In this document: piece by piece, positions 1,550 to 50,404 of the stretch
Layout of the letters: each line of letters begins with the position of its first letter
How positions within the stretch are numbered: position 1 is the first letter of the stretch
NCBI GenBank assembly: GCA_017881465.1
Contig: JADGQV010000001.1
Coordinates: forward strand, 1 to 64,000
Reading direction: 5' to 3'
From: Gemmatimonadaceae bacterium
GTDB lineage: Bacteria > Gemmatimonadota > Gemmatimonadetes > Gemmatimonadales > Gemmatimonadaceae
Length of the DNA: 64,000 nt
Notes under the pieces: generated by a model
Databases searched by the model: none
Seen by the model: only the letters and a program-made list of their open reading frames with translations
What the model was told of the DNA's origin: nothing
Made by a program: the position numbers and the translations under genes

Positions 1550-2925
1550 TACGCCTCTTTCGCCGCGAGCGCCCGGAAGCGCTCGCCTCTTTCCTCATAG
1601 TTCGAGAACATGTCGTAGCTCGAGCACGCCGGTGAAAGCAGCACCGCCTCGCCGGCGCTTGCTGCCGCCCGCGCAGCCTGAATGACCTCATCGAAATCGG
1701 AGCCGAGGCGCACGACGTCCACCACGGGACGAAGATCCGTCGCGATAATCGTCGCCGCCTCTCCATAGGCGATCACTCTCTTCACTTTTCTGCGCACCGC
1801 ATCGGCCAGAGACGTATAGGATTCTCCCTTGTGCCTGCCCCCGAGCAATAGGACGGTCGGACGCTCCATACCGTCAATTGCGACTGCTGTCGAGCTGACG
1901 TTGGTTGCCTTGGAATCATTGATCCACTGCACACCGCCGAATTCGCCGACCAGCTCGAGCCTGTGCGGGAGAGAGCGAAAGGTCTTGAGCGCCTTTGCGA
2001 TTCCCTTCCTTGCCTTCTGCGTCTGGTGGGAACGGTCCGCGGCCATCACCGCGAGCGCCGCCGCCAGGGCGTTCCCGACGTTGTGCTGTCCCAGAAGCGG
2101 AAGATCCTGGCGCGCGAGTAGCGGCGCTCCCAACACCACGAGCTGGCCGGTACGCGAATCGACCGACGCCTCCGCCTTTTTCAGGATTGAGAACGAATAT
2201 TTGTGGCCGCCGACGTCGCGCACCATGCGCGTCACTCCCTTGTCGTCCTTATTCACGACCCAGACCGATTCCGCATCGGCGTTGGCGAAGAGACGCGCCT
2301 TGTCGGCGTAATACTCCTCGACCGTCGAATACCGGTCCAGGTGATCGGGACTCAGGTTCGTGAGCACGCCAACCGCCGGCTTGAGGCTCGGCGTATCGTG
2401 CAGCTGGAACGACGACATCTCGAGCGAAATCCATTTCGGCTGCTGCTCGCGGGCGGCGATCTCGGAGAGTGGCGTTCCGATGTTGCCCGCCTCGACTGCT
2501 TCGATGTCAAGTCCGCGCAGAAGATGAGCAATGAGCGTGGTCGTGGTCGTTTTGCCGTTCGTCCCGGTGATGGCGATGATGCGCGGCCCCTCGAGGAAGT
2601 TGAGCGCGACTTCAACCTCGCTCGCGATCGGGATGCCCTTCTCGCGCGCGAATGCCAGGGGCCGCGCCGAAGGAGGAACGCCCGGGCTGGTGACGACGAG
2701 CGCCGCGCGCGCGAGGCGCTCCAGATCGTGCCGACCGACATCGACCGCGACACCCTGCGCGCGCAGCTCCTCCGCCACCCGTCCGGTGTCGGGCGAAGAC
2801 GCTACGTCCGAGGCATAAACGTTGTAGCCGTGCTTTCGCAGGAGCATCCCCACGGCACCACCGCTCCGGGCGAGGCCGATGACGGCGATCTCGCCCTCCC
2901 GCGGCACGAGCTCGCGCGGGCTCAT
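1549..2925 (-). CDS. murD: UDP-N-acetylmuramoyl-L-alanine--D-glutamate ligase
   Basis: 458 residues, normal length for MurD, the cytoplasmic ligase that adds D-Glu to UDP-MurNAc-L-Ala using ATP. An N-terminal Rossmann-like segment (EIAVIGLARSG) is followed by the Mur-ligase P-loop GTNGKTTTTT and the central LTNLSPDHLDRY motif. A C-terminal WINDSKATN block is also typical of the family. The start overlaps the end of mraY by 4 bases and the stop shares a base with ftsW, so it is translationally coupled within the dcw operon. Confidence 0.96.
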   Translation of the reverse strand: MSPRELVPREGEIAVIGLARSGGAVGMLLRKHGYNVYASDVASSPDTGRVAEELRAQGVAVDVGRHDLERLARAALVVTSPGVPPSARPLAFAREKGIPIASEVEVALNFLEGPRIIAITGTNGKTTTTTLIAHLLRGLDIEAVEAGNIGTPLSEIAAREQQPKWISLEMSSFQLHDTPSLKPAVGVLTNLSPDHLDRYSTVEEYYADKARLFANADAESVWVVNKDDKGVTRMVRDVGGHKYSFSILKKAEASVDSRTGQLVVLGAPLLARQDLPLLGQHNVGNALAAALAVMAADRSHQTQKARKGIAKALKTFRSLPHRLELVGEFGGVQWINDSKATNVSSTAVAIDGMERPTVLLLGGRHKGESYTSLADAVRRKVKRVIAYGEAATIIATDLRPVVDVVRLGSDFDEVIQAARAAASAGEAVLLSPACSSYDMFSNYEERGERFRALAAKEA

Positions 2926-4070
2926 CGCAACTTCAGCGTGCTCAGAGCGATGAAAGCGAACAACACTCCGATGATCCAGAATCGCACCACGACCTGAGCT
3001 TCATCCCAACCCTTTACCTCGAAGTGGTGGTGCAGCGGTGCTCGCTTGAACACCCGGTGCTCGCGCGCGTACTCGATTCCGTATCGTCGCTTTCGGTACT
3101 TGAACACGAAGCGCTGTATGATCACCGACATCATCTCGGCGACGAACACGGCGCCGACCAGAACGAGGAGGAATTCGGACTTGAGGAGAATCGCGACCGC
3201 CGCGAGAGCGCCGCCCAGGGCCAGCGACCCGGTGTCGCCCATGAAAACTTCGGCCGGATGTGTGTTGTACCAGAGAAATCCTATGCACGCCCCCATCAGG
3301 GCCGCGCAAAAAACGGTGAGCTCTCCGGAGCCTCGCAGGAAATAGACGTGCAGGTACTGGCTCGCATCGACGCGTCCCACCACGTACGCATAGAACGCAA
3401 ACGTCAGCGCCGCGATCGCAGTGAGACCTGCCGCGAGGCCGTCCAGCCCATCAGTGACGTTGACGGCGTTGCTCGTTCCAGTCATCACGAACGTCACGAA
3501 GAGCACGTACAGCCATCCCATTCCCGCCGTGAGCGGGACGATCAGGATGTATTTGTAGAACGGCAGCGTCGTCGACGCGCCGGGAAGGTTCGATAGAGGG
3601 TGCTTCCACAGGTAGTAGCCGACGGCAAGACCGAGCGTCATCTGCCCCACGAGCTTGTATTTCTCGACGAGCCCCGTGTTCTTCTTCCCGGCAAGCTTCT
3701 GCTTGAGCTTGAGGTAGTCATCCAGGAAGCCGATAACTCCCATCCACGCCATGCAGATCATCGCGATGAGCACGTAGCGGTTGTCCAGGCGCGCCCAGAG
3801 CAGAGTGCTGATGAGCGTCGCTCCGAGAATGATCAGGCCGCCCATGGTCGGAGTTCTGCCCTTCTGCTGGTGAGCGTCGGGCGTTCCTTCGCGTATCACC
3901 TGGTGGAGGCGCATGCGGCGCAGCCGGCGCATTATTCCGGGGCCGACGATCCAGGTGAGAAGAATCGCGCTCACCGCCGCGCCCGCCGCGCGAAAGGTTA
4001 TCCACTGGAACAGTCGCAGAAACCCGAAGTGCGGCAGTCCTACGAACGGAACGAGTAGATAGTTCAGCAC
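2922..4070 (-). CDS. mraY: Phospho-N-acetylmuramoyl-pentapeptide-transferase (lipid I synthase)
   Basis: 382 residues with about ten transmembrane segments. MraY transfers phospho-MurNAc-pentapeptide to undecaprenyl phosphate at the membrane. Diagnostic motifs are all present: GRTPTMGGL, the aspartate-rich DDYLK, NAVNVTDGLDGLA, FMGDTGSLALGG and the C-terminal HHHFE. Length is slightly above the usual 360 because of an N-terminal extension before the first conserved block. It is coupled to murF (1-base overlap) upstream and murD (4-base overlap) downstream. Confidence 0.96.
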   Translation of the reverse strand: MLNYLLVPFVGLPHFGFLRLFQWITFRAAGAAVSAILLTWIVGPGIMRRLRRMRLHQVIREGTPDAHQQKGRTPTMGGLIILGATLISTLLWARLDNRYVLIAMICMAWMGVIGFLDDYLKLKQKLAGKKNTGLVEKYKLVGQMTLGLAVGYYLWKHPLSNLPGASTTLPFYKYILIVPLTAGMGWLYVLFVTFVMTGTSNAVNVTDGLDGLAAGLTAIAALTFAFYAYVVGRVDASQYLHVYFLRGSGELTVFCAALMGACIGFLWYNTHPAEVFMGDTGSLALGGALAAVAILLKSEFLLVLVGAVFVAEMMSVIIQRFVFKYRKRRYGIEYAREHRVFKRAPLHHHFEVKGWDEAQVVVRFWIIGVLFAFIALSTLKLR

Positions 4071-6894: not shown

Positions 6895-8894
6895 TCGAGT
6901 GGGCGGCTCAGCTGAACGAGTGTGCCAGGTGCGGCGATGGTTCCGGCCGCGGGTAATGTTCCGACCGAAGACGCGGCAAGGAGCCGCACCCGGAACCCCG
7001 CGTGGTGGAGCGCTCGCACCGCTTCGCGAACTGACAGTCCTCGCACGTCGGGAACGGCGCGGGGAGCGATCGGCAGCGGCGCCGATTTCAGCGACGTCGG
7101 CAGCTCAACCACGTACGAGGCAGTGCCTTCGCTCGCGTCGCGATTCGTCACGTTCTTGTTCGGGTCGTACGAATCCGGCGCCGGTCGATCTGGTCCCTCG
7201 GCGTCATTGCGCCCCGACTGGGCGACGGCCGTCTTCTCCGATGCGGCCAGATCTTCGCGGTCGAGCGCCGCATCGCGCGCCGCGAGCGCGGCACGCAGCA
7301 CGATCTGCGTTACCGGCGCGGCGATGTCACCGCCCGCGTAGTGCGCGCCCTTCGGATTATCGAGCTTGACCATCACCACGTACTGCGGATCGTTGCCTGG
7401 AAAGAGACCGACGAATGAAGCCGTATAGTTTCCGGCGACGTAACCCGCGTTCTGCGATGTGCGTCGCGCGGTGCCGCTCTTTCCCGCAACCTCGAACGTC
7501 GCGAGATCGGCCTTCGTCGCGGTTCCCTCCCGCACCACCGCCAGAAGCATCTGCTGAACCGTACGCGCCACTTCGCCCGACATCACGCGCCGAACCGAGC
7601 GCGTCTTCGCGCGATACAACACCTTTCCATCGGTCGACCGCACTTCCTTCACCAGATGTGGCTCGAGCAGCTCCCCGCCGTTCGCTATCGCGGCGTACGC
7701 AGTGACGAGCTGGAGCGGCGTCACCGCGATCTCGTAGCCCATGAGGATCGATGCGCTCGTCTGCTTCGACCACTGCTTCGGCTCGCGCAACGTTCCTGAT
7801 GCTTCCGCCGGCAGCGGCACGCCGAGCGGCATCCCGAATCCGAGATCACGGAAGGTCTCGTACTTCTGGCGCGGCGTCAGACGCTGGCCGAACTCGACGA
7901 TGCCGATGTTGCTCGAAAACCGGATGACGTCGGCGAGCGAGAGCGACTTCGACTTGTGCATGTCGGTGATGACCCGCCCGTCGAGCTCGAGCGTTCCGTT
8001 GTGGGTGTCGACGACGTCGGTAGGCCGCGCTCGACCCTTCTCGAGCAGCGCCGCCGCGACGAAGGGCTTGAGCGTCGAGCCCGGCTCGAACGGCTCCGTC
8101 ACGGCAGTGTTCGAGAAAGCCGTGCGTCCGACTCTGTTGCTCGCCAGCGCGAGAATCTCTCCCGTGTGCGGATTCATCACCACGATGTCGCCGCCGTCCG
8201 CGCGCAGGCTGTCGACGGCGATCGACAGCTCACGCTCGCAGATGTCCTGCAGCGTATTGTTGATCGTCAGCACGACCGTCGATCCAGCCTTCGGTTGGTC
8301 GGTCCATCCGTCGGGAGAATCGAGCGGACGCCCATCCTTGTCGCGGGCCAGCCTCACTTTTCCCGAGTCACCGCGGAGCAGCGTATCGAGCGCGAGCTCC
8401 AGCCCATCCAGTGGATTTCCCCGTCCGTCCAGGCTGCCGACGATGCGCTTGATGCCGCCCGAATTGGGGTAGACGCGCTGCAGAACCGGCGTCAGGTGGA
8501 TGCCGTTCAGCTTCGAGATCGACGCGACATCGGAGGCCGTGTAGAGCCCTGGCAGGTCGATCCAGCGCCGCCGGTGCGCGATAGCGGCGCGGACGGCATC
8601 CGCATCAACGCGCGCGTGGTGCAGCGCCCTGAGAACGAACGCGGTGTCACGCACTTCGGGCAGCGCTACGGCGACGCGCGTCATCTCACGACTCTCGACC
8701 AGCGTGTTGCCGCTGGCGTCCAGAATTTCTCCCCGCGGAGCAGACAGAGCGCCCGCGAAGAAGTGCTGCCGCCTGGCGCGGGCGCTCCAATCCTTCCCTT
8801 CAACGACCTGCACCTTCGCGGCGCGAGCAACGAGCGCGAGCGCGAAGAGCACGAAGAAGGCGTGAACTATCGCGACGCGCTTAGGGGTTTTCAT
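6891..8894 (-). CDS. ftsI: Septal peptidoglycan transpeptidase FtsI (PBP3) with C-terminal PASTA domain
   Basis: 667 residues from the ATG at 8894 (MKTPKRVAIVHAFF), chosen because a single signal-anchor helix follows at once. The frame is open upstream only through ftsL. Class B PBP layout: anchor at about residues 8-25, dimerisation domain, then transpeptidase with catalytic STLK at 273-276, SSN at 327-329 and KSG at 472-474. After an Asp/Pro-rich linker comes one PASTA domain of about 60 residues (VPDVRGLSVREAVRAL). PASTA tails are more common in Gram-positive PBPs and Ser/Thr kinases. It overlaps ftsL by 14 bases and murE by 4. Confidence 0.94.
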   Translation of the reverse strand: MKTPKRVAIVHAFFVLFALALVARAAKVQVVEGKDWSARARRQHFFAGALSAPRGEILDASGNTLVESREMTRVAVALPEVRDTAFVLRALHHARVDADAVRAAIAHRRRWIDLPGLYTASDVASISKLNGIHLTPVLQRVYPNSGGIKRIVGSLDGRGNPLDGLELALDTLLRGDSGKVRLARDKDGRPLDSPDGWTDQPKAGSTVVLTINNTLQDICERELSIAVDSLRADGGDIVVMNPHTGEILALASNRVGRTAFSNTAVTEPFEPGSTLKPFVAAALLEKGRARPTDVVDTHNGTLELDGRVITDMHKSKSLSLADVIRFSSNIGIVEFGQRLTPRQKYETFRDLGFGMPLGVPLPAEASGTLREPKQWSKQTSASILMGYEIAVTPLQLVTAYAAIANGGELLEPHLVKEVRSTDGKVLYRAKTRSVRRVMSGEVARTVQQMLLAVVREGTATKADLATFEVAGKSGTARRTSQNAGYVAGNYTASFVGLFPGNDPQYVVMVKLDNPKGAHYAGGDIAAPVTQIVLRAALAARDAALDREDLAASEKTAVAQSGRNDAEGPDRPAPDSYDPNKNVTNRDASEGTASYVVELPTSLKSAPLPIAPRAVPDVRGLSVREAVRALHHAGFRVRLLAASSVGTLPAAGTIAAPGTLVQLSRPLE

Positions 8895-9189
8895 CTGGTC
8901 GCGGCCGTGGGAGTATGACGACCTGCTTGTCGGTCGGGATGTGCATGCCGAGACGATGTTCGACCGAGGCACCCAGCGTCTGTCTCGCGGAAGCGTCGCG
9001 AATATCGCTGTCGAGCCGGGCCCGCTCGCCCTCCAGCTCAACGCGCTTCGCGTCGAGCGCTGCGAGGCGCTCCGACTGGCTTATTCCGATCGTACGCCGC
9101 CACACGATCGCGAGCGCGACGAGCACGAAGGCGCCGAGTATGAGGGCCACGAGGGTCCGCCCCCGGAATGCTACGCGGCTTTTCGCCAT
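8881..9189 (-). CDS. ftsL: Cell division protein FtsL-like bitopic membrane protein
   Basis: 102 residues from the ATG at 9189 (MAKSRVAFRGRT). The layout is a short basic N-terminus, one transmembrane helix at about residues 14-32 (LVALILGAFVLVALAIVW), then a periplasmic coiled-coil stretch rich in Leu, Glu and Arg. FtsL scaffolds FtsW/FtsI at the septum with FtsB/DivIC. The sequence is weakly conserved, so the call rests on size, topology and position between rsmH and ftsI, the standard FtsL slot. The start lies inside the rsmH 3' end (19-base overlap). A longer in-frame start at 9321 would bury the helix in the middle and is rejected. Confidence 0.85.
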   Translation of the reverse strand: MAKSRVAFRGRTLVALILGAFVLVALAIVWRRTIGISQSERLAALDAKRVELEGERARLDSDIRDASARQTLGASVEHRLGMHIPTDKQVVILPRPRPDENP

Positions 9190-10121
9190 GCTCGTAGTCT
9201 GGCGCTGCGCGAGCGTGAATTCATAGCCGTCTCCGCCGGACTCGCCGCTAGCGCGCGTTTGGTCAGCACTTCGCCAAGAGCCTTGCCGCGGCAGGTGCAA
9301 TGCAGCTGCTTCGGGGGGCAAATGCAGGACTGACTCCAGCCGCGGATGGTGTGCTTGACGAGCCGGTCCTCTCCGGAGTGGTAGGAGATCACAGCGAGCA
9401 CGCCGCGCGGATCGAGGCGGTCGCGCAGCAACGGCAGTGCCTTCTCGAGTGCCGCGAGCTCGTCGTTGACGGCGATCCGCACGGCCTGGAAAAATCTCGC
9501 GAACTCACTCGGGCCCGTGCGCGCTCCGTAGGCGCCGCGAATCGCGTCGACCAGATCATCGCTCACGCGCATCGGCTTTCGATCGCGGCGACGCACGACT
9601 TCCCGCGCGAGCCGGTTGGCGCGCGGCTCGTCTCCGTAGTCACGAAAAATTTGGGATAGCTCTGCTTCATCGAGGGTGTTGAGCAAATCGGCGGCGGTGC
9701 CCGTAGAGCGACGGTCCATCCTCATGTCGAGTAACGCGCCAGGCCGAAAAGAGAAACCTCGCTCGTCGGCGTCGATCTGCCGGGAGGAAACGCCGAGGTC
9801 GGCGAGGATGCCGTCGAACGTGCGTCCGGCGAGCTCCGGGATGCGATCGATCTCACCGAAATTCCCCCTCAACGCGAGAAAGCGGCCTGACGCCTCGTGG
9901 GGCGCCAGCCGCTCTCGTGCTTCCGTTATGGCGGCCTCGTCGCGATCGATCGCTACAACCGAGGCGCCGGAGGCAAGGAGGGCTTCGCTATGCCCTCCTC
10001 CCCCCAACGTGCAATCCAGAACCTGTTTCGCGCCCTTGAACAGCGCCACCACCTCTTCGACCATGACCGGCGCATGGTAGGAGCTATCCCACCGGCCGGT
10101 CAGGGGGTCGGAGTCTGTCAC
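9171..10121 (-). CDS. rsmH: 16S rRNA (cytosine(1402)-N(4))-methyltransferase
   Basis: 316 residues, typical for RsmH (MraW). It uses SAM to methylate C1402 in the decoding centre of 16S rRNA. Visible features are the N-terminal YHAPVMVEEV segment, the SAM-binding DCTLGGGGHSEALL with glycines at about 40-43, the ILADLGVSSRQ block and the C-terminal AVISYHSGEDR motif. It is the first classical dcw gene here. Its start ATG overlaps the stop of the upstream TPR gene by 4 bases, so the TPR gene is probably co-transcribed. No mraZ is seen between them. Confidence 0.96.
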   Translation of the reverse strand: MTDSDPLTGRWDSSYHAPVMVEEVVALFKGAKQVLDCTLGGGGHSEALLASGASVVAIDRDEAAITEARERLAPHEASGRFLALRGNFGEIDRIPELAGRTFDGILADLGVSSRQIDADERGFSFRPGALLDMRMDRRSTGTAADLLNTLDEAELSQIFRDYGDEPRANRLAREVVRRRDRKPMRVSDDLVDAIRGAYGARTGPSEFARFFQAVRIAVNDELAALEKALPLLRDRLDPRGVLAVISYHSGEDRLVKHTIRGWSQSCICPPKQLHCTCRGKALGEVLTKRALAASPAETAMNSRSRSARLRAWRKAA

Positions 10122-21959: not shown

Positions 21960-22607
21960 CTACTCTACGCGCACGGCGCGGAAGATGGCGTCGAATGCCT
22001 TCTGGTCGGGGACGAGCAGGAAGAATCCGTGCAGGCTCTCCACCGGCTCCTCGAGGAAGAACTCCGTCTCCACGCAAAGGATTGGAGATTCGGCCTGCGG
22101 TGCGCGGTCGCCCAGTGTCTTCAGAGCCTCCTCGGTCTTCCCGGTGGTGAGCGACGGCGGAGAGAGCATGAGGCGCATGTCGAGGAACTCACTGAGAGCC
22201 GTGAGATACGCGCCGGCGAGAATGTTTCCCGCTTCGTTCAGCGCCGACTGCTCGAGCTTGCCCAGACTCTGGGATGTCCCACGGGTCCGCCGCAGCATTC
22301 GCTCCGCGAGTCTCAGACCCGCCGGGATTGCCAGGAGAAACACCGTTTGCCCGCCGATGTCGCCGCTCATCGCCATCCGGACGGCGACGATCTCCACGCC
22401 GCTAGCGATCTCCGGCACGAAATCACCGGGCGGTACAATGTTCACCATCGGGACGCTGATCATGATGCGCGTGGCCGTCAGCGTCGAAAGCGCGGTCGCG
22501 GCGTGACCGGCGCCAATGTTGGCAACCTCGCGCAGCGCGTCGAGACGGGCGCTACTGAAGAGCGTCGTAGCGCTATCACCGGATGGTGTATTGCGGGGAT
22601 TAGTCAT
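21960..22607 (-). CDS. cheC: CheY-P phosphatase CheC
   Basis: 215 residues from the ATG at 22607 (MTNPRNTPSG). The long frame upstream lies inside cheA. Two copies of the CheC phosphatase motif (D/S-x3-E-x2-N-x22-P) are intact: DALREVAN with the proline 23 residues after Asn, and SALNEAGN with matching spacing. CheC dephosphorylates CheY-P and usually works with CheD, which is absent here. The gene starts one base after the cheA stop. With cheY, cheA and cheW just upstream, it supplies signal termination for this pathway. Confidence 0.93.
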   Translation of the reverse strand: MTNPRNTPSGDSATTLFSSARLDALREVANIGAGHAATALSTLTATRIMISVPMVNIVPPGDFVPEIASGVEIVAVRMAMSGDIGGQTVFLLAIPAGLRLAERMLRRTRGTSQSLGKLEQSALNEAGNILAGAYLTALSEFLDMRLMLSPPSLTTGKTEEALKTLGDRAPQAESPILCVETEFFLEEPVESLHGFFLLVPDQKAFDAIFRAVRVE

Positions 22608-22608
22608 T

Positions 22609-24219
22609 TCAGAGGAGACTGGAGGCGTCCACGATGAGAGCGGGCGATCCATCGCCAAGAATGGTCGCGCCGCTGAAAAGAGTCTTGCTGGCGTCCACGC
22701 CATCGAATTGCTTGACGACGATTTCCTGCTGGCCGATGAACTCGTCGACGATGAGCGCTGCGCGCCGCTCGGCCAGCTCGATGAGCACGACCTGACCGCT
22801 GGCGGCGCTGGCGGCCGGCGGCAGGCCGACGCGCTCACGCAGCCAGATGGCGGTGAAGAGATCGTCGCGGATGGCGACGACCTGCCTTCCCTTCGACTCG
22901 AGCAGCATCGGCTGCGAGAGGCTGAATGTCTCGAGTACGTGCGTGAGAGGGATCGCGTAAACCTCCTTGTCGACTCTTGCCAGGAGGGCGCGCGAGATGG
23001 CGAGCGTCAGAGGCAGACGCATGGCGACGCTGGTGCCGAGCCCCGCGTCGGTGTGCACCTCCAGCGAGCCGCCGAGCGCGCGCACCCGGGTAGCCACGAT
23101 GTCGAATCCGACACCGCGTCCCGAGATCTCGGTCACCTTCTCCGCCGTCGAGAAGCCGGGCCGGGATATGATCGAGATGAGCTCCTGCTCGGACAGCTTC
23201 GTGGTGCCCTGCTCGACCAAGCCCAGTTTCTTCGCGCGCGGCAGCACTCGCGACTGGTCTATTCCGCGGCCGTCGTCCGTCACACGAATGAGCACCGTCG
23301 CGCGGTCACGCTCCGCCGTGAGGATCAGAGTGGCGACGCGTGGCTTTCCGGCTCTCTCACGATCGTCCGGCGTCTCGACGCCGTGATCGAGCGAGTTCCG
23401 GAGCAGGTGCAGAACGGGCTCGCCCATCTCGTCGAGCATCGAGCGATCGAGCTCGATCTCCCGGCCTTCGATCTTGAAATCCACTTCTTTCCCGAGCGAG
23501 CGCGCGGTGTCGCGCACGACACGCGGGAAGCGCTCGAACACCTGCCACACCGGAACCATGCGGCTCGTCATGATCTCGTTCTGGAGCGTGGCCAGGATCT
23601 GGGAAGCGCGGAGCGTCGCCTCGAGCAGCGACTCGTCACCGAGCTGCTCAGCGATCTTCTGAATGCGGTCGCGCGCGATCACGAGCTCGCCAACGACGTT
23701 CATCAGGGTGTCGAGCCGCTTCGCGTCGATGCGGATGTGGCGCGGCGTCTTTTGCGCCGCCTGAACAGAAGGAGCCGACGGAGAGGGCGCCTTCCTGTCG
23801 ACCGCCACAATGGCGAATTCCGACGTGAACGTCTGCGGTGTCTCCTCGCTCGAGGCCGCTCGGATGCGGGCCATGATCTCCTTCACGTCGAGCTGCTGCG
23901 GAGCTGCACCCGTTGCCAGGTCTACTGCCTGCTCAAGCGCGTCCACGCCGGAGAAAAGCGTGTCGATGATCGGGCGCGTCACGACGAGCGCGCCGTTCCT
24001 GAGCTTGTCGAGCAGCGTCTCCAGCTCGTGGGACAGCTCTCCCACCGAAGTGTAGCCCATCGCGGCTCCCATGCCCTTCATCGTGTGAACCGCGCGAAAG
24101 AGACGCGCTATGGCCGTGTCGCTCCCGCCGCGCTCCAATTCGAGGAGCGCGTTGTTTATCTCGGAGAGGTTTTCACGGCTCTCCGAGAGAAAAAGCTTGG
24201 CGTAGCGACCCGTGTCCAC
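22609..24219 (-). CDS. cheA: Chemotaxis-type histidine kinase CheA
   Basis: 536 residues, short for CheA (often 650 or more) because the CheY-binding P2 domain is missing. The N-terminal HPt domain has phospho-accepting H45 in RAVHTMKGM. A linker of about 60 residues leads to the dimerisation domain (LDTLMNVVGELVIARDRI). The ATPase has N box HLLRNSLDHG, then VTDDGRGID and GRGVGFDIV. The CheW-like regulatory domain is at the C-terminus (ALLARVDKEVYAIPL). It is 0-1 bases from cheY and cheC. It should phosphorylate the adjacent CheY and CheB. Confidence 0.96.
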   Translation of the reverse strand: MDTGRYAKLFLSESRENLSEINNALLELERGGSDTAIARLFRAVHTMKGMGAAMGYTSVGELSHELETLLDKLRNGALVVTRPIIDTLFSGVDALEQAVDLATGAAPQQLDVKEIMARIRAASSEETPQTFTSEFAIVAVDRKAPSPSAPSVQAAQKTPRHIRIDAKRLDTLMNVVGELVIARDRIQKIAEQLGDESLLEATLRASQILATLQNEIMTSRMVPVWQVFERFPRVVRDTARSLGKEVDFKIEGREIELDRSMLDEMGEPVLHLLRNSLDHGVETPDDRERAGKPRVATLILTAERDRATVLIRVTDDGRGIDQSRVLPRAKKLGLVEQGTTKLSEQELISIISRPGFSTAEKVTEISGRGVGFDIVATRVRALGGSLEVHTDAGLGTSVAMRLPLTLAISRALLARVDKEVYAIPLTHVLETFSLSQPMLLESKGRQVVAIRDDLFTAIWLRERVGLPPAASAASGQVVLIELAERRAALIVDEFIGQQEIVVKQFDGVDASKTLFSGATILGDGSPALIVDASSLL

Positions 24220-24582
24220 CTAGGCGAGCACCCGCTGCACCGCTTCGAGAACGCGGCTCGGCTGGAACGGCTTCACCACGAAGTCGCGCGCTCCCGCCTG
24301 AAGGGCTTCCTGCACCAGGGCCTGCTGCCCCATCGCGCTGCACATGAGAATTCGCGCGGCAGGATCCATCTGGGTAATCTGCTTCACCGCTTCGATCCCG
24401 CCCATCTCCGGCATGATGATGTCCATCGTCACCAGATCCGGTTTCAGCTGCTGGTATTTCTCAACAGCCTGTTTCCCGTTTTCCGCTTCTCCGACGACCG
24501 TGAAGCCGGCCTGAGAAAGGATATCGCTGACCATCGTCCGCATGAACACCGCGTCGTCACAAACCAGCACAGTACTGCTCAC
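24220..24582 (-). CDS. cheY: Single-domain response regulator CheY
   Basis: 120 residues, a lone receiver domain. Acidic pocket D9-D10, phospho-acceptor D54 in VTMDIIMP, conserved S82 in place of Thr and K104 in FVVKPF. It ends where cheA begins (adjacent codons) and starts one base after cheW, so it is the natural CheA target. The output partner is unknown: there are no flagellar switch genes in the window, and the MglA/PATAN proteins are the nearest candidates for a downstream target. That link is inference. Confidence 0.95.
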   Translation of the reverse strand: MSSTVLVCDDAVFMRTMVSDILSQAGFTVVGEAENGKQAVEKYQQLKPDLVTMDIIMPEMGGIEAVKQITQMDPAARILMCSAMGQQALVQEALQAGARDFVVKPFQPSRVLEAVQRVLA

Positions 24583-24583
24583 C

Positions 24584-25072
24584 CTACCTCCCTTGTCCGA
24601 TGACTTGCTGAACCACTGTCTTGATGTCGAGCACGAGGACGCGCTGCCCCTCGATCTCGACTGCTCCAGTTACCGCGCCCACGAGCGGGATTTCCGCCTG
24701 ATCCGCCGCCCCGAATTGATCTATCGGCACATCCTGAATGTCGCGAACGTCGTCAACGCCGATTCCGATCCACCGATCGAAATAATCGACCAGCAGGATC
24801 AGGCCTTCCGCGCGCCCGCGAGCGAGCTTGCCGAGCGAGGTGCCGCCGTCAATCACAGTCACGATGGTTCCGCGCAGATTGATGAGGCCGCGCACGGTAT
24901 CGGGAGCGCCCGGCAGCCTCGTTATGTGCTGCATGGGAACTATCTCTCGAAAGGAGTCCATGTCGCACGCGAAGGAGCTGTCGCCAATGTTGAACACGAG
25001 CAGGCGGCGGGTCGGTACGTGCGGCTCTTCCTCGACGACCTGTTCGGGAGGGAGCGCGACGGCGTCACTCAT
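24584..25072 (-). CDS. cheW: Chemotaxis-type coupling protein CheW
   Basis: 162 residues. After about 25 N-terminal residues, the CheW domain starts RRLLVFNIGDSSFACDMDSFREIV and contains TRLPGAPDTVRGLINLRGTIVTVID and ILLVDYFDRWIGIGVDDV, the standard tandem SH3-like pattern. CheW links CheA to receptors. It is the first Che gene in the leftward operon; its start lies inside the 3' end of rluD (8-base overlap), so it may be read from housekeeping promoters further right. No receptor gene is adjacent. Confidence 0.95.
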   Translation of the reverse strand: MSDAVALPPEQVVEEEPHVPTRRLLVFNIGDSSFACDMDSFREIVPMQHITRLPGAPDTVRGLINLRGTIVTVIDGGTSLGKLARGRAEGLILLVDYFDRWIGIGVDDVRDIQDVPIDQFGAADQAEIPLVGAVTGAVEIEGQRVLVLDIKTVVQQVIGQGR

Positions 25073-48005: not shown

Positions 48006-49067
48006 CTACGCTACCAGCACCGAGCTCGCTTGCCAGTTGATTCCGAGGAGGGCGTTCGCAACCGTCGGATCGAAGTGACTCCCGGCCCTGCGCTTGATCT
48101 CGGCGAGCGTGTCGTCCATTCCCCACGCCGGCCGGTAGGGACGGTCATGGGTGAGCGCGTCGAGAAAGTCTGCCGCCGCGACTATGCGCGCTTCGAGCGG
48201 AATGCTCTGACCCGAGACGCGGTCGGGATAACCCGACCCGTCCCACCATTCGTGATGGCTGCGGGCGATTCGCTGCGAGAAGCGGACAAGCTCCGAGCGG
48301 CCCTTCGAGAGCATTCTCGATCCGATCACGGTGTGGGTCTTCATGATCTCGAACTCTTCCCCGGTAAGCGGGCCAGCCTTGAGCAGGATGTTGTCCGGGA
48401 TTCCGACCTTGCCGATGTCGTGCAGGGGGGCGGCGCGGCTGATCAGCTCCAGCGTCGCCGACTCGAGGCCGATCGCTTCCCCCAGCCTCGCCGAGATCTG
48501 CGCGACTCGCTTGGTGTGATTGCCGGTGTCGTCGTCCCGGAATTCGACGGCGGCCGCGAGCCTCTCCAGAACCTCGAGCTGTGATTGCTCGAGCTCCCTC
48601 GTGCGCTCCGTGACCTTCTGCTCCAGCTCGGTGTTCTGGTGGCGAAGCTTCCGATAAAGGAAATGCGTTTCAAGGAGATTTCGAATCCTGAGGAGTACTT
48701 CCGCGGAGTCGAACGGCTTACTCAGGAAGTCCTTTGCTCCGAGTGCGAGGGCGCGGCGCTTGGCGTGGGCGCTGTCATCCGCGGTAATCATGATTACTGG
48801 CACCTGCTCCGAGTCGCCATTCTGCGCGACGATTTCTTCCAGGACCTGGAACCCGTCTTTACCGCTCATGTGAACGTCGAGCAGAACGAGATCGGGCTTG
48901 AACTGCTTATGAAGCGCGTGGGCATCCACTGAACTGGTCGTTGACGCAATATCCTCGTATCCGGCTTTCGCAAGGATTTGCTCAAGGAGGCGAACGTTCG
49001 CCTCCTGGTCGTCGATGATAAGGATCCGCCCCAGCTTGTCACGCCGTGGCATCTTGGTCTGTGACAC
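48006..49067 (-). CDS. REC-HD-GYP response regulator, putative cyclic-di-GMP phosphodiesterase
   Basis: 353 residues. Receiver domain at about 12-130 with D19-D20 and phospho-acceptor D64 in LVLLDVHM and K117. A coiled-coil linker follows (LRHQNTELEQKVTERTRELEQ). The HD-GYP domain has FRDDDTGNHTKRVAQI, HDIGKVGIPD at 216-225 and HHEWWDGSGYP at 271-281, so its metal and GYP motifs are intact. It probably degrades c-di-GMP when phosphorylated. It starts directly after the stop of the kinase-like gene (adjacent codons), so the two are co-expressed. Confidence 0.93.
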   Translation of the reverse strand: MSQTKMPRRDKLGRILIIDDQEANVRLLEQILAKAGYEDIASTTSSVDAHALHKQFKPDLVLLDVHMSGKDGFQVLEEIVAQNGDSEQVPVIMITADDSAHAKRRALALGAKDFLSKPFDSAEVLLRIRNLLETHFLYRKLRHQNTELEQKVTERTRELEQSQLEVLERLAAAVEFRDDDTGNHTKRVAQISARLGEAIGLESATLELISRAAPLHDIGKVGIPDNILLKAGPLTGEEFEIMKTHTVIGSRMLSKGRSELVRFSQRIARSHHEWWDGSGYPDRVSGQSIPLEARIVAAADFLDALTHDRPYRPAWGMDDTLAEIKRRAGSHFDPTVANALLGINWQASSVLVA

Positions 49068-50183
49068 CTAGGCGGAGGTCGTCGGGGGCTTGCTCAGAAC
49101 CGCGCGTACGGCCGAACGAAGCGCGTCCGCTGTAAACGGCTTCTGGAGGAAGTCAGTCTCCGACTTCTGGATTCCGCGACGAAGTATTTCGTTGTCGGTG
49201 TATCCCGACATGAACAGAACTCTCAGTCCGGGGCTGAGCTCGTGCAGCTCGTCGACCATGCCGCGCCCGCCAAGCGTCGGCATCTCGACGTCTGTGAGAA
49301 CGAGATCTATTTCGCCTACCTGTTCGGCGGCAATGCGGAGCGCCATGGCGCCATCTGACGCCTCGAGAACGTGGTAACCGGCCTCAGTGAGCACACGCTT
49401 CCCCAGCTTGCGAAGCGATTTCTCGTCGTCGACGAGAAGAATGGTTTCGCGGCCGGTGGGCGCTCCGTGCTTCAGGCGTCTGACCTTCGACGAATTCCTC
49501 CCGGCTGATTCGCGGTCGGCTGTCTCTTCACCCGACTCCTTCATCGGAGAGCCGGGAAGCGGAAGCGAGCTCGCGCCTCGATCGAGGCCGGTGGCTTGCG
49601 GCAGAACTCGCCGGCTCGTGAGCAGCAGCTTCTTGGTGATCGCTTCCGCACGTTCGGCGGCCAGGCGAATCTCGCCTGCTTCCTGGGTCGAGAGCTTAGC
49701 TTCGCCCAAACTCGACTCGATGATATCCGCGTTCATGCGAATGACGGTGAGAAGATTGTTCAGCTCGTGCGCGCCGCGGCTCGCCACGTCAGCGAAGGTG
49801 TGGAGCTCCTGGGTTCTGAGGGCGAGCGTCTCTTCGACAGGGCGTCCCGCCGTGAGGTCTTCGATCGCGAGGAGAACCGTGGCTTCGGCGGGGTCCGCGG
49901 AGGGGACGAGTCGCGCGCTTAGCCACAGGACTCCTCGGCCACCTTCCTTTTCGTCGTGAACCAGCTCGAAGTGATCCGACTGCGGTTCCCCGCCAAGAAC
50001 GGTCTCGAGCATGGGGCGGAGTTGTTTGTCCCACGTCATTCCACCGAGCTCGTAGACCTTGTGCCCGACGCATTCAGCGGGTGCAAGGCGAAACATGGTG
50101 TAGAAGGCTTTGTTGGCAGCGCGCACGTTGAGCTCGGAGTCGAGAACCAACAGTGCTTCGCTTGGGGCAGGGGAGCTAATCAT
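49068..50183 (-). CDS. PAS - histidine-box - REC hybrid lacking the ATPase domain
   Basis: 371 residues. A PAS domain covers about 8-115 (ALLVLDSELNVRAANKAFYTMF). A dimerisation helix follows with H139 in GAHELNNLLTVIRMNADII, matching the HDFNNLLT type of hybrid kinases. The HATPase domain is missing: residues 195-243 are a Ser/Gly/Lys-rich linker. A REC domain follows at 247-365 with D252-D253, D298 in LVLTDVEMP and K348. It cannot autophosphorylate by itself as read. It is next to the HD-GYP gene and probably regulates or is phosphorylated with it. No frameshift is evident. Confidence 0.88.
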   Translation of the reverse strand: MISSPAPSEALLVLDSELNVRAANKAFYTMFRLAPAECVGHKVYELGGMTWDKQLRPMLETVLGGEPQSDHFELVHDEKEGGRGVLWLSARLVPSADPAEATVLLAIEDLTAGRPVEETLALRTQELHTFADVASRGAHELNNLLTVIRMNADIIESSLGEAKLSTQEAGEIRLAAERAEAITKKLLLTSRRVLPQATGLDRGASSLPLPGSPMKESGEETADRESAGRNSSKVRRLKHGAPTGRETILLVDDEKSLRKLGKRVLTEAGYHVLEASDGAMALRIAAEQVGEIDLVLTDVEMPTLGGRGMVDELHELSPGLRVLFMSGYTDNEILRRGIQKSETDFLQKPFTADALRSAVRAVLSKPPTTSA

Positions 50184-50347: not shown

Positions 50348-50384
50348 AAAAAGAAAATGGCTCGCCCAAAAAGGAGCGAGCCAT
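50348..50384 (-). terminator. Intrinsic terminator of rpsA
   Basis: On the minus strand ATGGCTCGC and GCGAGCCAT form a 9-pair stem around a 10-base loop, followed by TTTTCTTTTT. It lies 21 bases after the rpsA stop. Both stem and T run are strong. Confidence 0.9.
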
Positions 50385-50404
50385 TCACTCGAGCCGCGTC
50401 GCGT

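Follow-up and report, generated by a model that had tools for sequence, protein, structure and literature searches.

A conserved PAS-DHp-REC protein lacking the kinase ATP-binding domain in Gemmatimonadaceae, a possible adaptor for another kinase

The window, that is, the whole stretch of 64,000 nucleotides analyzed here, carries on its reverse strand a gene, called gene A below, whose product combines a PAS domain, the helical hairpin of histidine kinases (DHp) and a receiver (REC), and which lies directly beside the gene of a REC-HD-GYP protein. The features of the locus are the following.

49068..50183, (-): gene A, PAS-DHp-linker-REC protein of 371 aa without HATPase (ORF translation and Pfam)
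49848..50159, (-): PAS domain, residues 9-112 (Pfam PAS_4, 2.6e-10; PAS-like strands in the AlphaFold2 model)
49608..49838, (-): DHp (HisKA) helical hairpin, residues 116-192 (Pfam HisKA 138-191; model helices 116-161 and 167-192)
49767..49769, (-): codon of His139 in the HELNN box, with E140 and N143 (invariance in the alignment of gene A and its sister family B)
49455..49607, (-): linker, residues 193-243, in the position of the HATPase of hybrids (alignment; pLDDT < 50)
49104..49442, (-): receiver domain, residues 248-360 (Pfam, 1.2e-22; dN/dS 0.034)
49290..49292, (-): codon of Asp298, the REC phospho-acceptor (invariant in 37 aligned sequences)
48006..49067, (-): REC-HD-GYP protein of 353 aa, directly adjoining gene A (HD and GYP motifs intact, as is REC Asp64)
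50355..50386, (-): terminator-like hairpin after rpsA, 13 pairs and a T-run (consensus scan only)

The first-pass annotation was correct as to the reading frame, its coordinates and strand, H139 and D298, and Pfam bears out its description of a PAS domain, a histidine box and a REC with no HATPase: the HisKA match at 138-191 (4.7e-05, 23.8 bits) lies slightly below the 26.9-bit cut-off, and HATPase is absent from all eight intact A proteins, this one and its seven intact orthologues. As in hybrid kinases of the CckA type, there is a HisKA/DHp with a phosphorylatable His and a C-terminal REC with its acceptor Asp; the HATPase_c is missing, so that the protein does not belong among the hybrid histidine kinases as a kinase. 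A PAS region 43% identical to that of gene A is fused, in G027:C224, to an ordinary HisKA-HATPase, and this PAS is therefore a common module.

The extent of the missing part can be read from the distance between the His and the start of the REC, which is 108 aa in gene A, 86-91 aa in sister family B and 236-243 aa in full-length hybrids, a net loss in gene A of some 132 aa with respect to the latter, in agreement with the "about 130" residues of HATPase originally estimated. In the alignment, gene A departs from the hybrids near LPQxTGLD (LQPRVLD in the hybrids) and rejoins them at GxETILLV. The Ser/Gly/Lys-rich linker said to replace the HATPase does exist (193-243), but it is more than filler, since in eight sequences its first half (193-217) is nearly invariant, with the motif [VT]LPQxTGLDRGxxxVPLPGSPxKES, while residues 218-242 vary. 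The fold prediction that had been proposed for this region was made in two AlphaFold2 runs, one with 8 sequences (mean pLDDT 56.8) and one with 37 (69.5), and in both models residues 193-242 are unstructured (pLDDT < 50), the DHp hairpin and the REC being confident in the second. A fold search against the PDB returned nothing beyond the PAS-histidine kinases and receivers that were to be expected. A hidden or degenerate ATPase within the linker was rejected on the lack of a Pfam match together with the disorder in both models, and a degenerate ATPase-like domain of the Spo0B/ChpT type was not found after the DHp, the 51-aa linker being predicted to be disordered.

Among the 61 genomes searched, the protein recurs in eight besides the window's own (nine in all), with 70-89% identity and always within one genus of soil bacteria of the phylum Gemmatimonadota, the named relatives being Gemmatimonadetes/Gemmatimonadaceae metagenome bins. 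Seven of these orthologues are intact, with 371-372 aa and no internal stops, in keeping with the earlier statement that the frame is whole and not freshly shifted; the eighth (G014) is interrupted by unresolved bases or assembly gaps alone. The search of relatives for a full-length version, which the first-pass annotation had suggested, found none at the orthologous locus, and neither a full HATPase there nor an assembly deletion was seen for the orthologues. Median dN/dS (pairwise Nei-Gojobori, own script, eight intact A sequences) is 0.09 overall, 0.10 in the PAS, 0.14 in the DHp, 0.19 in the linker and 0.034 in the REC; these figures are rough because many synonymous distances are large, and closer pairs leave the picture unchanged, with the exception of the linker in one pair. 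Residues H139, E140, N143, D253, D298 and P349 are invariant across 16 A and B sequences, and the His and the Asn at +4 stay so when 21 further relatives, mostly full-length hybrids, are added. By these measures gene A is under strong purifying selection, and its invariant residues could in part be inherited.

As had been described, an intact REC-HD-GYP gene begins on the base adjoining gene A, and the predicted hairpin that separates this pair from the upstream rpsA suggests that both form their own transcript. The order rpsA - gene A - HD-GYP - DinB - MFS is kept in most of the genomes with gene A. The proposed coupling with the HD-GYP protein holds in part: the two genes are adjacent in 7 of 9 genomes, including the window's own, but G004 and G009 (67-68% complete) keep gene A with no HD-GYP gene beside it and no close copy elsewhere. 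The neighboring enzyme would be expected to break down the second messenger, and the suggestion that gene A tunes c-di-GMP is, as judged from gene order, only partly supported. Around rpsA in congeners without gene A, the stretches retrieved contain no gene A and no close homologue of the HD-GYP gene. The HD-GYP homologue of G005, which is 55% identical, shares four bases with the end of the gene for a complete hybrid kinase of 791 aa:

69-2444, (+): complete hybrid kinase, locus L138 (G005:C225)
2441-3532, (+): HD-GYP homologue, same locus

This kinase shows no special closeness to gene A in the tree. The arrangement supports a pathway from kinase to HD-GYP in general.

The closest kin of gene A is family B, a HATPase-less DHp-REC protein of about 249 aa present in eight genomes, which forms a single clade with A (support 99/96 in one sampling, 100/99 in another). 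In the first tree the full-length hybrid nearest to this clade is G000:C184 (93/84), and the second does not settle the nearest relative; that the nearest full-length relative of gene A is this CckA-like hybrid may thus be regarded as moderately supported by the phylogeny. The root between the A/B clade and the hybrids is not firmly placed, so that the loss of the HATPase in the A/B line rests on parsimony. All A and B sequences have HE[LM]NN, whereas the full-length hybrids of this subtype have HDFNN, with three exceptions among the N-N types seen (HEVNN, HEANN and HEFNN); this difference probably reflects one event in A/B, and so is a description and not a statistic. Two full-length hybrids, L019 (G058:C10) and L026 (G039:C92), have HEVNN and HEANN, and their HATPase motifs look intact by eye. 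In several B genes (L042, L045, L046) there is no in-frame ATG, GTG or TTG before the DHp, and a CTG (LKKS...) is the likely start. At L039 (G000:C138) B is one of a divergent HATPase-less pair, made up of D, a PAS-PAS-DHp gene (7350-8405, (-)), and the DHp-REC gene (8554-9300, (+)); 7 of the 8 B genomes retain this pair, G017 being without D.

The C184 kinase has 935-945 aa and, by eye, GAF/PAS, DHp, HATPase and REC. It is present in all six of the gene A-bearing genomes searched, and also, without gene A, in G003 and G007 (80% and 54% complete); it was not found in five A-negative genomes (G001, G002, G005, G006 and G012). In G011 and G007 it shares a contig with B. Kinship and co-occurrence make it a candidate in-trans partner kinase for gene A, and the co-occurrence may reflect the mere shared ancestry of one subclade.

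Gene A is not alone in its own genome, where a scan with PF00512 and PF02518 gives 5 of 35 HisKA matches with no nearby HATPase: A, B, D beside B, a PAS-DHp gene (E) and a 150-aa DHp protein. This last, with a possible degenerate ATPase end, is seen at L101 (713-1162, (-)), L103 (696-1145, (+)) and L072 (1474-1926, (-)), and could possibly be a ChpT/Spo0B-like phosphotransferase; its gene and the frame of an NtrC-like response regulator overlap in both G011 and G013. Matches judged by eye in other genomes number about 5 of 52 in G011, 1 of 30 in G013 and one or two of 39 in G019, while in a published SMART count, whose methods differ from those of our genome scans, the HATPase-less share is 3.66% of HisKA proteins (PMC3591291). 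Conversely, of the HATPase matches of the genome that lack a nearby PF00512, five were read, and none of these five is a dedicated stand-alone partner near gene A; named by eye, they are CheA (22609-24219), a NarL-type-looking kinase, an anti-sigma-like protein, a STAS-HATPase-like protein and a fragment, this list leaving aside a further match, C28. The CheA gene stands in a chemotaxis-type group recognized by eye at 21960-25072 of the window: CheC-like (21960-22838, (-)), CheA (22609-24219, (-)) and CheW-like (24584-25072, (-)).

A different set of HATPase-less proteins bears, directly after the DHp, a tail of the form Y-x-G-x3-M-x-D-L, with some variation, which is found in D, in E, in a REC-DHp-REC protein of G001 and in REC-DHp proteins throughout the phylum, the short ones without HATPase ending soon after it (L105-L134, alignment A3). 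A DHp-plus-tail profile matches 80 of 150 phylum genomes at 1e-8, although the weaker matches often end before the tail and include long kinases; clear short REC-DHp proteins occur at about twenty loci. In a DHp tree based on 84 columns, the 35 rows of the tail family cluster together (99/85), separate from A and B, so that HATPase-less DHp proteins would have arisen at least twice, if the tree holds. Gene A was considered as a member of this family and rejected: it has no tail, and it groups with the HDFNN hybrids.

Proteins of this kind are known in outline. A HisKA without a HATPase on the same chain is listed in P2CS as a "possible incomplete histidine kinase" (PMC5847659; PMC3591291), a term that covers gene A, and the HE/DxxN/T motif of potentially bifunctional split kinases (PMC3591291) is present in its HELNN. 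REC-HisKA proteins and, in a Lokiarchaeum genome, ribbon-helix-helix-HisKA-REC proteins have been listed, and acceptor, transfer or phosphatase roles suggested for the class (PMC5847659). In contrast to such census entries, here a single orthologous PAS-HisKA-REC gene is tracked at one locus, together with its sister family and a candidate for the full-length partner. The order PAS, DHp, REC is that of CckA-type hybrids (PAS-DHp-CA-REC), the fold of the REC is close to that of the CckA receiver 6tne, and CckA is the best NCBIfam profile (1.8e-42), matched in two stretches with a score of 145 bits, where membership requires 1000; unlike these hybrids, gene A has no catalytic ATP-binding domain, and has HELNN where the related full-length ones have HDFNN. 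In its possible way of working it resembles the split kinase CheA3/CheA4 of Rhodobacter sphaeroides (PMC3591291), with the phosphorylatable His and the ATP-binding activity on separate proteins, although these use CheA-type P1/P4 domains, while gene A has a HisKA DHp and its trans kinase is a candidate only. It also resembles Spo0B, ChpT and PhyT (PMC5898713, PMC3433190) in that a histidine kinase-like DHp would serve phosphotransfer without kinase activity of its own. These three keep a degenerate ATPase-like domain, whereas gene A is without any such remnant and includes a PAS and a REC. To our knowledge, none of them carries a REC.

With no recognizable ATP-binding domain, the protein should not autophosphorylate, and as this engine has been cleanly lost while the gene is retained in nine genomes, it probably relays or removes phosphate from another kinase. 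The reading we place first, with a probability of roughly 0.5, is that of a PAS-gated DHp-REC adaptor loaded in trans, followed by a phosphatase only, and then by a scaffold. The ancestor of this adaptor would have been a hybrid histidine kinase resembling CckA, from which the entire ATP-binding domain was lost. The phosphoryl group would reach His139 in trans, donated within a mixed dimer by the catalytic domain of a related full-length hybrid or passed back from a phosphorylated receiver; it would next stay on the protein's own REC, be drained through it, or be exchanged with a partner REC such as that of the neighboring HD-GYP protein, and the PAS signal would set transfer against dephosphorylation. 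Kinase activity requires the acid at +1, and phosphatase activity the Asn/Thr at +4, in CrdS and three further HisKA kinases (PMC3510030); gene A keeps both the acid and the Asn, which fits an acceptor that also dephosphorylates, and which ancestry could explain. Against the adaptor, the isolated DHp of EnvZ had no phosphatase activity in mammalian cells (PMC8971529), so that a DHp lacking its CA domain may depend on additional help. The three roles initially advanced, a phospho-sink, a substrate in trans or a dimer partner, fit the loss of the domain, the kept acceptors, the strong selection and the co-occurring full-length relative; it is the coupling to HD-GYP that makes the earlier interpretation as a whole only partly supported.

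That the DHp dimer only drains a partner receiver (its own REC, that of the HD-GYP protein or that of C184) under PAS control, His139 never receiving phosphate derived from ATP, is possible though rather unlikely: N143, the HisKA phosphatase residue, is invariant, the two activities are separable (PMC3510030) and such a role has already been raised for HATPase-less HisKA proteins (PMC5847659), but E140, which a phosphatase does not require, is just as invariant in A and B, the EnvZ test just cited again speaks against it, and the protein's own REC would be superfluous. Still more doubtful is a non-catalytic scaffold or dominant negative that would cut the output of a C184-type hybrid in mixed dimers while taking no phosphate, for which the close kinship and co-occurrence with C184 and the dimerizing nature of the DHp can be invoked, whereas H139, D298 and the acid pocket of the REC are strictly conserved, which, with the low dN/dS of the REC, points to chemistry. 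A decaying hybrid kinase, on its way to disappearing after losing its catalytic domain, would agree with the absent HATPase and the variable second half of the linker, but is highly improbable given seven other genomes with the same length, an open frame, such identity and dN/dS, and a conserved linker motif; a pseudogene is excluded by the orthologues and dN/dS. Lastly, an assembly deletion in the window's metagenome bin, whose genome is fragmented into 198 contigs, is ruled out by the seven intact orthologues of equal length without internal stops, since independent genomes, one of them on a 674-kb contig, yield the same protein.

On a wider scale, one could imagine in Gemmatimonadota a kinase-sharing network, a tentative and on balance unlikely picture, in which a few full-length hybrids would feed conserved DHp adaptors without a catalytic domain (PAS-DHp-REC, DHp-REC, PAS-PAS-DHp, REC-DHp), each with its own sensor and receiver, one branch setting c-di-GMP via HD-GYP. 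The HisKA proteins without HATPase form a class recorded in censuses and hardly studied, of which gene A is a well-conserved example and not an isolated oddity. In the open-licence literature we found no description of a PAS-DHp-REC layout with a conserved linker, a sister family and this phylum setting, nor an experimental study of a HATPase-less HisKA with the layout of gene A. What the case offers is an orthologous family under strong selection with a sister family to set beside it, a whole-domain loss that has a place on a tree, and a candidate for the full-length partner encoded in the same genome, to which G005 adds a natural comparison, with a complete hybrid kinase ahead of the same kind of HD-GYP gene. 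Taken together, these make the function of a histidine kinase minus its kinase directly testable.
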